A DNA stretch of 64,000 nt from Candidatus Proruminimicrobium quisquiliarum (lineage in GTDB: Bacteria > Elusimicrobiota > Endomicrobiia > Endomicrobiales > Endomicrobiaceae): the NCBI GenBank assembly GCA_018433245.1, contig JAHDRN010000007.1, positions 124,001 through 188,000 of the forward strand, written 5' to 3'. The notes below the pieces were generated by a model that did no database searches, was not told where the DNA came from, and saw only the letters and a program-made list of their open reading frames with translations. This document shows, piece after piece, positions 59,276-64,000 of the stretch (the stretch's first letter is position 1; every line of letters begins with the position of its first letter). Made by a program: the position numbers and the translations under genes.

Positions 59276-60931
59276 TTATTTTTTTTCTTTTATAATGTAT
59301 TTTGTCTTATAATATATCTTATTCATTTCCAAAATATCAGCTTTGACCGATTTGAATTTATAAATTTCGCATTCTTTTAAAACATCGGATATGTTTTTAA
59401 TAAATTCCGGTTCATCACCGGCCTTTTTAAGATTTATTTCTATTTCATTTTTTGACATATTTAAATATTCTATGTTAGTTTTTGACCTTAAAAACATTTT
59501 AACCGCATACTCCAAACACGTATAAAAATTTATTTGTTCTTCTTTTCGTAAATAGTCATACGAATTTTTAAGATAATATTCCGCTTTTTTGTACGCCTTT
59601 ATTTTTTGAATCTTTTCATAATCTCTTTGCATATAGATTATAACAATTCTGTATACGAAAGAAGATACGGCAAATAATAAAAACAAACTCAGAAGCGACA
59701 TAAAAAACTTGTTTTTAACAAGATATTTTTTGTATTGTTTGGCATAAACAACGTCTTTTACCGGTTTTAAATTTTTTTGTATAACGAATTCCTCTCCGGT
59801 TTGCTCATCCTGCCGCGCAGCGGCGTCGTATGTCTCGCTGTTTACGTCAAAAAATATCGCTGAAGATTTAATAACGACATAATTTTTCAGATCGGGATCA
59901 AAATAAGAAAAAGTAATTTCCGGAATATTTTTTTGTCCGCTCATTAACGGAATAAGAACACACTGGAATTTTTTAGAACTTATGACGGGATCATTTTCAA
60001 CTTTAACAAAAGTGGCGTATTTTTTTATATCGCTTGATAATTCAAAAACGGGTTCGGCTATGGAATTAATATTGCCGTTGCCTTTTATATTTATTGACAA
60101 ATTAACGGGTTCGTTGATTTTTACGCTCTTTTTATTAACGGAAGATGATATATAATATTTACCGACCGCACCGGTAAAGTTTTCCGGAATATTTTTTTGC
60201 GGGAGAGGGAAAATTTTTATTTTTATCGGATTGGTTTTGAAAGAGTATTTATTGCTGCCGTTTAAGTATTTTACATCAACAACCGAAGGATCAATTATTA
60301 TAATGCCGTCTCTCATAGGATAGAGACGCGTTGTTACGGTAAATGTGAAATAATTTTCGCCATTTATAAGTTCATATCCGCTTTTTATATCCGATTTGGT
60401 TTTCCAAAAATCTCTAAACATCGGAAGAAGATAATTCGGATTTGAAGCTAAATTATACCTTGTTGCGAATTCAAGAGTATAATATACCTGCTGGTTCACA
60501 TATGCGGCATTTGTATCAGTGTATGCTTTAACAAAAGTGTTTACATCGCTGGCTGTATAGACTGCCTGTGATACTTTAGTTTTATTGACTTTTATTTCTA
60601 TCGGATTTGAAACAATTTCATTTTTATCAGAATCATAAACAGTTATTGCGGGTATTGTAAAAAAACCGTATGTTTTAGGAGTTATTACGTATTCATAAAC
60701 ATATTTTTTACCGTTTTTTATGTAATCTTTTCTTGATAAAATTAAAAAATCTTCTATTTTAGGCAGTTTAAAATTATCAGAATTTTTAACATTCTGCGCT
60801 ATTTCAACAACCAACTTAATGTTTTCGCCTTCAAAAATCTCTCTTTTATCAAGCGAAACATCCAAAATATCATTGCCAAAAACAAAAGCCGGTATTAATA
60901 AAACAAATAATAAAATAAATTTTTTCAGCAT
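59276..60931 (-). CDS. batD: BatD family protein
   Basis: This 551-residue protein has a signal peptide (ending near FVFG) and a series of beta-sandwich domains: DVSLDKREIFEGENIKLVVE, then YVNQQVYYTLEFATRYN and VNEPVNLSINIKGNGNINSIAEP-like repeats, in pieces. A TM near residue 415 (FFMSLLSLFLLFAVSSFVY) and a cytoplasmic helical tail of about 110 residues complete it. The gene follows the large coiled-coil gene without a gap. BatA/B VWA proteins and MoxR would lie beyond the right edge, if present. Confidence 0.87.
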   Translation of the reverse strand: MLKKFILLFVLLIPAFVFGNDILDVSLDKREIFEGENIKLVVEIAQNVKNSDNFKLPKIEDFLILSRKDYIKNGKKYVYEYVITPKTYGFFTIPAITVYDSDKNEIVSNPIEIKVNKTKVSQAVYTASDVNTFVKAYTDTNAAYVNQQVYYTLEFATRYNLASNPNYLLPMFRDFWKTKSDIKSGYELINGENYFTFTVTTRLYPMRDGIIIIDPSVVDVKYLNGSNKYSFKTNPIKIKIFPLPQKNIPENFTGAVGKYYISSSVNKKSVKINEPVNLSINIKGNGNINSIAEPVFELSSDIKKYATFVKVENDPVISSKKFQCVLIPLMSGQKNIPEITFSYFDPDLKNYVVIKSSAIFFDVNSETYDAAARQDEQTGEEFVIQKNLKPVKDVVYAKQYKKYLVKNKFFMSLLSLFLLFAVSSFVYRIVIIYMQRDYEKIQKIKAYKKAEYYLKNSYDYLRKEEQINFYTCLEYAVKMFLRSKTNIEYLNMSKNEIEINLKKAGDEPEFIKNISDVLKECEIYKFKSVKADILEMNKIYYKTKYIIKEKK

Positions 60932-63900
60932 TTACCAGTCTCTCTGATTCGCATCAATTTCCTGTCCTTTTATTTTTTTATCATTTTGAGGCTTATCCAT
61001 ATCGCCGTAAAAATTCAAAACACGGTTTAAATCCTGATTACCTATTTTCTGTCCTTTCACATCTTTATTTTCATCGGCGACGGGTTCATTCTGTTCCGAA
61101 TCAAAATCCGCGTCCAAATCCGACATTTCAGCCATTGATTTTGAAAAATCATCGGAAAGTCTGTTTTTTTCAGTTTTTAACTCTTCTTCGGATTTTCTTA
61201 ATTTGTTAAGTTTGGCGTCGGCTTCGGCAACCTTATTTCCGTATTCCCGAGATTCTTGTTCCATATTTTTATGTTTCGCCTTAATTTCATTAATTTCGTT
61301 TGAATTCAATGTTCGTCCGGCTTGAAGTCTCTGATCCATTGTTTTGATCAATTCTCTTTCGGCATTTTTCATTTTTTCTTTTATATTTTCATTTTTATTT
61401 TCACTGTATTGTCTTTTTAATCTTTCCATTTCTCTTTCAAGTTCCGCCTGCTTTTTTAAAATCCGGTCTAATTTTTCCTTCTCGCTTTTTAATTTTTCTT
61501 GTTGTTTCTTTAATTCGGCGCTTAAAATATCTTTCTCGCTGTTTGCCCATTTTTGTCCGTGCTCGGCTTTCTGTCTGTTTTTTTCGGTCTCCATCTGTTC
61601 TTCTTTATTTTTATCAAGCTGTTTATTTATATCTTTTATATTTCTCTGTATGTTCTGCATTTGTTTCTTTAATGCCGCCGCTCTTTTGGCATTTTCGCTA
61701 TCCTGAATTTTATTCTCGGGTTTTTCTTCCTGAATTTCATTTTTTATTTTTAGATTTTGTTTAAGATTTTTTATGTTTTCTTCCAGCATTTTTTGCTGCT
61801 GCAGTAATTTATTGTTTAATTTTCTTGTTTCTTCCTGCTGTTTTTTCAACTTGTTTGCCGCGGCTTCCAACTGCTCCTGCTTGATTTTATTGTCTTCCGG
61901 ATTAACGCCGGATTTATTCTGATTGCGCCACATCTCATTCATTATGCTTTCTTTAGATTTGGCATTAAGCATATTTATCTTTTGTTCATTTATCTCTTTT
62001 ATTTTATTTTTGTTTTCATTTATCGCATCCTGAATAAATTTCTGCTCTTTTTCCAACCTTTCAAACTTTTTAATGCTTTCTTCTTTTCTGTTTTCGTTTA
62101 ACTCGGTTATTTTATTTTCTTCATTTTCTATTGATTTTTTTATTTCATTCAACCGTTTTGCTTTTTGCCTTAAATTTTCAAGTTTTTTTTGAGCCTGTAC
62201 TTTTTCTTTTAAACTTCTGTTTGTCGATTCAAGCTGCGTAAGAAGTTCTTTTTGTTCCCGGTTAATTTGAATTTGTTCAGTTTCCAATGCGTTTTTTTCT
62301 TTTTCAAGTTCATTCATATTCTTTCTGATGTCAAAATCACTCGTTTTGTCAATTTTATATTCATTTAAGTCCGCGCGTTTGTCATTATTTATCATATTTT
62401 CAAAAGAACGTTTTTTTTGATTTTCAAGAATATTTTGAAAATCATCTTTCGCATCTTCAAAATCCGTTGTTGCTTGTTTCTCCAAATTTTCCGTATTTTC
62501 CTGCAAATACTGTTTATTTTTTATTAAATCTTCTTTAATTTTATTGTCTTTTTCTTTTATTATTGCGTCTTCCAGCAATTGCATCTGCCGCTTATTGTTT
62601 TCAATTTGTTTTTCAATAAGCCTTTTTTCCTCATTTTTAGCTTTTGCAAGTTTCATATCAATATTTTCATTGAATTTTTTTTCGGCAAGATTTTGTTTGT
62701 CAGATATTTTTTTCAAATCTTCCTGATTAGCGTCTTTGTTTAAAATCGTTTTTTCAAGTTCATATTTATTGTCTTGAACCTGCTCCGATTTTTTTTCATC
62801 GGTTTTTTGCTGTAAAATATTTTCCAACTCTTTCGTTTTTTGCTGCAATTTTTCATTCAACTCATTCTGACGCCGCAAACTTTCCGTATTACGGTTATAT
62901 TCTTTCGCCATTTCGTCTTTGAAATCTTTCATACCTTTCTTAATCTTTTGAATAAGTTCATGCCTTTGCGATTCTATATTATATTTATCTTTTTCAATGG
63001 ATTTTTCCTGGATTATTAATTCATTGATTTTTTCATTCTTACTCTGTTCGTCAGGCATTTTTTCAATAGACTTCCTTTGAGAATTCAATTTCATTTGCTT
63101 ATTCAAAACTTCATCATAAGCTGCTTCCAACTCTTTTTTTTGTCCGCTCAAAGAAACGGATTCCTGTTGTTTTTTTAATATATTATCTATTTGAGAGTCA
63201 ATTTGCCGCCTGTATTTTTCAATCTCGTTTTTTTGTATTAAATTTTGTTTTTCAAGGAGGGACAATACATCGTTCTCTATTTTAACTTTTGATTTCTCAT
63301 CCAATAATTCGCGGAATTTTTCAACATTTTCTTTTTGTTTTTCGTTTAGTTGATTCTGCATATCAAGTTTATTTTTTTCGCCGGATAATATTTCATCGTA
63401 CTCTTGCATTGTTTTATCTCCGGCTATATTATCCAATTCGACTGCATTATTTTTTAAAACTTCCAATTGTTTGTTATAATTTTTATTCAGCAGTTGTTTT
63501 TTATCCGCTGCCATTTTCTGTATCAATGCGTTATTGTCAATCTGTTGTTCGTATCTGAGCATTTGAGGAATATTTTTATTGATATTTTCATAATTTTTCT
63601 GCTTTAAAATATCGTCGTGCTTTATATATGTATCATTTAATTCTTTCGAAGCGTCTTCCATTTTTTTTGCAGTTTCCAGTCGGTGGGTTACAAAATTTTC
63701 CTTTATATCAAGTATATTTTTTTCAAATTCGTTTTTTATATTTATACGCTGTTTCTGCAGCGACTCTATATTATTTTCAAGTCTGTCGATTTCCTGTTGT
63801 TTTAAAAGTTTTTTATTTAACATATCGTTTAATTCGTTTTGCAGATTGTTTTTTGCCGCAATCTCCTGAACAGAATTAATTTTATTTTCAATATCAGTTT

Positions 63901-64000
63901 TCTCAGCATCCATTTGGTTAAGAGAATTTACCGCTTCCTGCCTTTGCCGCATAAGCTGTTTTTCGTCATTAATATTTTTTTGCAAAATATTTTTATTAAT
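60932..64000 (-). CDS. Giant coiled-coil protein of the Bat locus, partial
   Basis: The open frame continues past the right edge, so the N-terminus is missing and the visible 1,022 codons are a minimum. Almost the whole sequence is made of K, E, N, Q, L, I and D in heptad-like patterns, with no cysteine and no TM segment in the visible part. Repeating phrases such as KKLLKQQEIDRLENNIE and LEKQNLIQKNEIEKYRRQ show a long helical rod. The C-terminus changes character: acidic MSDLDADFDSEQNEP, then NQDLNRVLNFYGD and a basic end finishing RDW. It abuts batD. I do not recognise a family; DUF4175-like or SMC-like rod proteins are only loose analogies. Confidence 0.85.
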   Translation of the reverse strand: MNKNILQKNINDEKQLMRQRQEAVNSLNQMDAEKTDIENKINSVQEIAAKNNLQNELNDMLNKKLLKQQEIDRLENNIESLQKQRINIKNEFEKNILDIKENFVTHRLETAKKMEDASKELNDTYIKHDDILKQKNYENINKNIPQMLRYEQQIDNNALIQKMAADKKQLLNKNYNKQLEVLKNNAVELDNIAGDKTMQEYDEILSGEKNKLDMQNQLNEKQKENVEKFRELLDEKSKVKIENDVLSLLEKQNLIQKNEIEKYRRQIDSQIDNILKKQQESVSLSGQKKELEAAYDEVLNKQMKLNSQRKSIEKMPDEQSKNEKINELIIQEKSIEKDKYNIESQRHELIQKIKKGMKDFKDEMAKEYNRNTESLRRQNELNEKLQQKTKELENILQQKTDEKKSEQVQDNKYELEKTILNKDANQEDLKKISDKQNLAEKKFNENIDMKLAKAKNEEKRLIEKQIENNKRQMQLLEDAIIKEKDNKIKEDLIKNKQYLQENTENLEKQATTDFEDAKDDFQNILENQKKRSFENMINNDKRADLNEYKIDKTSDFDIRKNMNELEKEKNALETEQIQINREQKELLTQLESTNRSLKEKVQAQKKLENLRQKAKRLNEIKKSIENEENKITELNENRKEESIKKFERLEKEQKFIQDAINENKNKIKEINEQKINMLNAKSKESIMNEMWRNQNKSGVNPEDNKIKQEQLEAAANKLKKQQEETRKLNNKLLQQQKMLEENIKNLKQNLKIKNEIQEEKPENKIQDSENAKRAAALKKQMQNIQRNIKDINKQLDKNKEEQMETEKNRQKAEHGQKWANSEKDILSAELKKQQEKLKSEKEKLDRILKKQAELEREMERLKRQYSENKNENIKEKMKNAERELIKTMDQRLQAGRTLNSNEINEIKAKHKNMEQESREYGNKVAEADAKLNKLRKSEEELKTEKNRLSDDFSKSMAEMSDLDADFDSEQNEPVADENKDVKGQKIGNQDLNRVLNFYGDMDKPQNDKKIKGQEIDANQRDW

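Follow-up and report, generated by a model that had tools for sequence, protein, structure and literature searches.

A giant BatC with a long helical region in the Bat operons of a few Elusimicrobia genera

The gene directly ahead of batD on the reverse strand of the window (the whole 64,000-nucleotide stretch of DNA analyzed here) encodes a constrained, giant variant of a known subunit, BatC, which is limited to a few Elusimicrobia genera. BatC is the small TPR subunit of the MoxR–Bat membrane complex (Bacteroides aerotolerance operon). The rod protein is BatC itself, with the rod as an internal expansion rather than an added Bat component.

The rod gene and its operon

The window part of the gene, batC-rod, comprises 1,022 codons without cysteine, is rich in Lys, Glu, Asn and Gln, and ends in ...QRDW (Table 1). 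The initial annotation had described a Cys-free, K/E/N/Q-rich minus-strand frame, open to the window edge and joined to batD with zero gap; both points were reproduced when the frame at 60932–64000 was re-derived, with the stop codon (60932–60934) directly abutting the batD ATG at 60931. The window (G000:C23:124001–188000) belongs to a 276-kb contig that runs on past the window edge, and the contig extension that the annotation had proposed gave both the N-terminus (anchor and TPRs) and the upstream moxR, DUF58 and VWA genes. The complete ATG gene (L004:2933–7264(−), equivalent to window 60932–65263, with residue 1 at position 65263, beyond the window) encodes a protein of 1,443 residues, P0001. 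The lack of a membrane segment, also noted initially, holds for the in-window part and not for the full protein, which has one at its N-terminus.

Table 1 Features of the Bat operon in the window, with the basis for each assignment
Feature	Position	Strand	Basis
batC-rod, residues 422–1443 + stop	60932..64000	−	open frame to window edge
Giant helical region, in-window residues 422–1405	61049..64000	−	periodicity, coil score, AlphaFold2 helix, conservation
BatC C-terminal tail KIGNQDLNRVLNFYGDMDKPQNDKKIKGQEIDANQRDW, residues 1406–1443	60935..61048	−	same tail in BatCs, terminal-Trp statistics
batD, 551 aa	59276..60931	−	PF13584, E = 3.7e-29; starts on base after batC-rod stop codon
batE, 244 aa	58540..59274	−	signal-like start, TPR, two hydrophobic segments, SH3-like end

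The operon is complete and runs in one direction in the order moxR–DUF58–320 aa–batA–batB–batC-rod–batD–batE, the rod gene occupying the batC place between batB and batD and sharing its first 8 bases with the end of batB. Pfam identified DUF58 (E = 8e-69), moxR (AAA_3, E = 6e-66) and, as VWA proteins, BatA and BatB; the genes before moxR were judged by eye to be proA-like and aconitase-like. The 320-aa gene between DUF58 and batA (L004:9268–10227(−)) is without a match in Pfam or NCBIfam and has counterparts at the same place in the family operons seen.

Residues 1–150 of P0001 hold a hydrophobic N-terminal segment and TPRs (Pfam), and can be aligned with the normal-sized BatCs of the family. 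A profile built from the TPR region of family BatCs, P0001 included, matches P0001 with E = 1.8e-48, and phmmer comparison of P0001 with short BatCs gave a best E of 1e-22. P0001 did not match NCBIfam NF047507 (TPR_BatC_Lepto) at E ≤ 0.01; the short BatCs of Bacteroidota and of the window's family do match this model, all under its curated cut-off of 175 bits. Run against solved structures, the TPR profile picked out generic TPR proteins. At 1,443 aa the protein falls outside the usual BatC size, which is typical and not defining. Because it combines an anchor and TPRs at its N-terminus with the batB/batD position and the BatC tail, P0001 is identified as BatC; these same features bear out the earlier suggestion of a replaced or extended BatC. 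The notion that a rod protein of its own was added to the operon has to be abandoned, as the rod lies inside BatC, between its conserved ends.

Structure, distribution and constraint of the helical region

P0001 is laid out as the TPR head, a variable linker (~200–260), a block (~296–390), a helical region from ~379 and the tail. The block, EVVRPEKVINPKKII...KSKYVYEHEDII, is the best-conserved stretch of rod-BatC, ~90% identical within genus g1 and present only in G000, G064, G061, G062 and G070 among the 77 family genomes. The helical region extends for ~1,030–1,035 residues between the conserved ends, and the rod is composed of 16.7% K, 14.5% E, 11.6% N, 9.3% L and 8.8% Q, with no Cys. It is alpha-helical and largely coiled-coil. 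The hydrophobic periodicity of P0001 is 3.60 residues, ~7 SD above shuffled rods (3.5–3.65 residues and 7–10 SD over shuffles for the four intact rods), and a COILS-type score, calculated with a reconstructed scoring matrix, assigns 67% of the rod to coiled coil against 28 ± 6% in shuffles (67–72% against 28–35% for the four rods). The AlphaFold2 model of residues 284–1443 (mean pLDDT 59, pTM 0.23, 6 sequences) is almost all helix from 377 to 1385; it places turns near 465, 736 and 905, in stretches where the local pLDDT is about 80 or higher. The coiled-coil rod of the initial annotation stands as to its helical periodicity and coil score; an unbroken single rod cannot be read from the AlphaFold2 model, which is too weak and contains turns.

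Intact rod-BatCs were found in four genomes from two genera (G000, 1,443 aa; G064, 1,455 aa; G061, 1,507 aa; G062, 1,563 aa). Genus g13 has partial copies at contig ends: an in-frame stretch of 1,597 codons in G070, with a frame break near the contig start, and the last 168 residues in G075. A BatC head on a 3.4-kb contig of G074 is most like these g13 partial copies. Unfused BatCs other than the rod forms measure about 200–480 aa, those compared here spanning 214–480 aa. Among the matches listed from 297 Bacteroidota genomes, BatC frames are 197–333 aa when unfused, with none above 333 aa, and 540–631 aa as fusions; in the window's phylum most BatC frames are 200–640 aa, longer frames outside the rod genomes having been assigned in bulk to other TPR proteins.

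The block-to-tail length is 1035, 1042, 1083 and 1087 residues in the four intact rods and 1,499 in G070, and the rods of g1 and g11 align nearly without gaps at ~30% identity. The extra residues of G070 comprise 41 just after the block and ~405 in the rod, at P0001 842–932. The G070 rod also contains three tandem 216-nt (72-codon) copies (L208:2118–2765), apparently recent in-frame growth; duplication in frame can thus lengthen a rod. DNA repeats that might trace the origin of the window's own rod were sought, and only weak pairs were found, clear tandem copies being confined to G070. Between G000 and G064, dN/dS is 0.156 for the rod and 0.10 for the TPR part, compared with 0.18 for batD, 0.19 for batE, 0.10 for batA and 0.06 for moxR (dS is 1.0–1.7, partly saturated). 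The rod is under purifying selection.

Cells with a rod operon have also retained an ordinary Bat system. The second operon of the window's genome (L192:2238–9538, G000:C13) contains moxR, DUF58, a 289-aa gene, batA, batB, a 223-aa BatC ending in NGKTW and batD, with no adjacent batE; second operons were also found in G064 and G061. A tree of DUF58 sequences unites the rod operons in a single clade (100/100), whose sister group consists of the ordinary anchored-BatC operons of genera g2–g10; the second operons group with g13/g14. Gene order links the rod operon to a g5 operon with a 421-aa BatC, and together with the tree this indicates that the rod evolved within an operon lineage that was already established.

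Three further observations concern the Bat loci of the family. In g11, the nadD–yqeK interval just downstream of batE (L036:2665–6896 and L037:2270–6492) encodes a further BatC-like protein of 1,103–1,104 aa, with a TPR head, a ...QVKNDW tail and a weaker coil score, and a 304–306-aa protein with a signal-like start; neither has a match in NCBIfam. In second-type operons of g13 and g11, an extra protein of 418–912 aa with a signal-like start sits between DUF58 and the next bat gene (L046:735–3347, L055:9417–12155, L194:9689–10945). The nearly complete genomes G045 and G048 (genus g4) gave no BatC match at 1e-9, suggesting that the Bat operon has been lost from them.

The terminal tryptophan and the topology of BatC

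The last ~38 residues of P0001, ...RVLNFYGDMDKPQNDKKIKGQEIDANQRDW, match the ends of short BatCs, such as ...LNYYNEADKNSNKLKNRNKKPLINQPQEDW. BatCs ending in ...(D/N)W occur in named Bat loci of Bacteroidota, Cloacimonadota, Firestonebacteria, Omnitrophota, Verrucomicrobiota, Chitinispirillia, Lentisphaerae and others. A terminal Trp, mostly as DW, closes 74 of the 77 complete BatCs located after a VWA gene and 25/25 BatB–BatC fusions (a count that leaves out the window's own gene, which has a chance VWA-like motif), confirming the resemblance to a BatC xxDW tail that the initial annotation had suggested for the RDW end; two of the three BatCs without it lie on the same contig, which ends just past them. 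In all, 116 of the 1,441 ORFs in these loci end in Trp, of which ~107 are BatCs or fusions, compared with about 9 of the ~1,330 other ORFs, and all 42 rows of an alignment of fusions and BatCs end in W. By these comparisons the Trp tail is old, common to the BatCs of many phyla and near-universal. The open-access literature, which most subscription journals stand outside, yielded no description of a BatC tail or a giant BatC. The near-universal BatC tail is the wider lead to come from the giant protein, and the (D/N)W end provides a small, testable handle.

Natural BatB–BatC (VWA–TPR) fusions bear on the topology. Between VWA and TPR, 21 of the 25 have two hydrophobic segments; in every fusion in which the first two segments were both found, the loop joining them is rich in Lys/Arg, and the later pair usually encloses a basic loop. 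As basic loops are cytoplasmic by the positive-inside rule, VWA and TPR would lie on the same, periplasmic side, and from the single anchor of unfused BatC it follows that its TPR, rod and tail should be periplasmic too. The topology of the fusions thus argues strongly for a periplasmic location of all three. A periplasmic Bat complex has been proposed for Bacteroides fragilis, according to PMC3557215. In Foldseek the VWA half of a fusion matches Bacteroides BatB (3IBS) and the aerotolerance-related 4JDU. In the AlphaFold2 model of a natural fusion the final 14 residues have no fixed place (pLDDT <50), so the model gives no docked position for the tail, a point against the docking role proposed below.

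Proposed role and comparison with known systems

We consider it probable that, in the BatC of the divergent operon, the short Q/N/D/K-rich linker became a giant helical spacer while the anchor–TPR head and the putative docking tail were kept. The TPR head would sit with BatA, BatB, BatD and BatE at the inner membrane, the tail would be a docking peptide received by a VWA site or TPR groove of a Bat partner, and the rod would serve as a spacer or scaffold with which head and tail could act at separate places; alternatively, the rod may link neighboring Bat complexes along the membrane or peptidoglycan. Of the schemes considered, we infer that this arrangement of head, docking tail and spacer or scaffold is the most likely. 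A straight helix of 1,035 residues would measure ~150 nm, far more than the width of the periplasm, so the rod must follow the envelope, double back on itself or form bundles. The tail is a plausible ligand in the light of two cases from elsewhere: kinesin light chain TPRs bind Trp-acidic peptides (PMC6505310), and the VWA MIDAS sites of MoxR-partner proteins have been proposed to bind acidic residues of their target (PMC13036017). The principle shared with kinesin light chain is a TPR reading a Trp/Asp peptide, here proposed for the BatC tail; kinesin light chain differs in being an unrelated eukaryotic system, and binding of the BatC tail is a proposal by analogy.

With >1,000 conserved residues between them, head and tail would seem to be separate modules. 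This reading matters while the function of the Bat proteins "remains elusive", as PMC3557215 puts it; according to the same paper, deletion work in Leptospira biflexa found no role for Bat in oxidative stress. In a bolder version, which we regard as improbable, rod-BatCs would connect Bat complexes in a head-to-tail fashion and so build a helical lattice in the periplasm, an envelope scaffold running along the membrane or peptidoglycan, the DW tail of each rod-BatC being bound by the TPR or VWA of its neighbor.

The rod could instead have formed through nearly neutral growth of an elastic K/Q/N/E-rich linker by in-frame duplication and act just as a short linker does. The wide variation of linker length in the family (about 80–290 aa), the mostly coil-like character of the BatC linkers of genus g5 and the tandem copies in G070 are what such growth would leave. 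We nevertheless hold it to be unlikely, as the rod dN/dS (0.16) is comparable to that of batD and batE, the length is nearly fixed between g1 and g11 despite their low identity, and a separate block, highly conserved within g1 and confined to rod-BatC genomes, stands beside the rod. Somewhat better placed, though still doubtful, is a rod folded as one long antiparallel hairpin, or as several hairpins in series, so that the tail comes back to the TPR head while the outer end of the rod contacts a distant target. The three locally confident AlphaFold2 turns point this way, as does the placing of all ~405 extra G070 rod residues near the rod middle, as for a freely lengthening tip; however, the pTM is too low for packing to be read, and the middle may just be the least constrained part of any rod. 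An independent coiled-coil protein of the cytoplasm, such as SMC or DUF4175, present in the Bat operon by chance, would explain a low-complexity coil without Cys, of a kind common to many unrelated coils. The initial annotation had named such a domain at the N-terminus, or relatives with the rod unlinked to Bat genes, as evidence against its own proposal; TPRs are the sole Pfam matches, the anchor and tail are those of BatC, and all four intact copies stand in the same operon, so this explanation is refuted for practical purposes.

Giant spacer BatC, the reading we prefer, shares with ordinary BatC its position between batB and batD, the N-terminal membrane segment, the TPRs and the C-terminal DW tail; it differs in being ~5 times as long, in having a helical rod for the short Q/N/D/K-rich linker and in the extra block at 296–390. 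The TPR half of BatB–BatC (VWA–TPR) fusions, including that of Leptospira biflexa (PMC3557215), has the same DW tail. Unlike P0001, the fusions are joined to VWA, are 541–758 aa long and are without a rod. Other helical spacers of the periplasm, TolA domain II among them, likewise combine a membrane-anchored long helix with a conserved C-terminal end. Pfam finds no TolA or Tol-Pal domain in P0001, and the likeness of rod-BatC to TolA domain II is by analogy only, the rod being several times longer.
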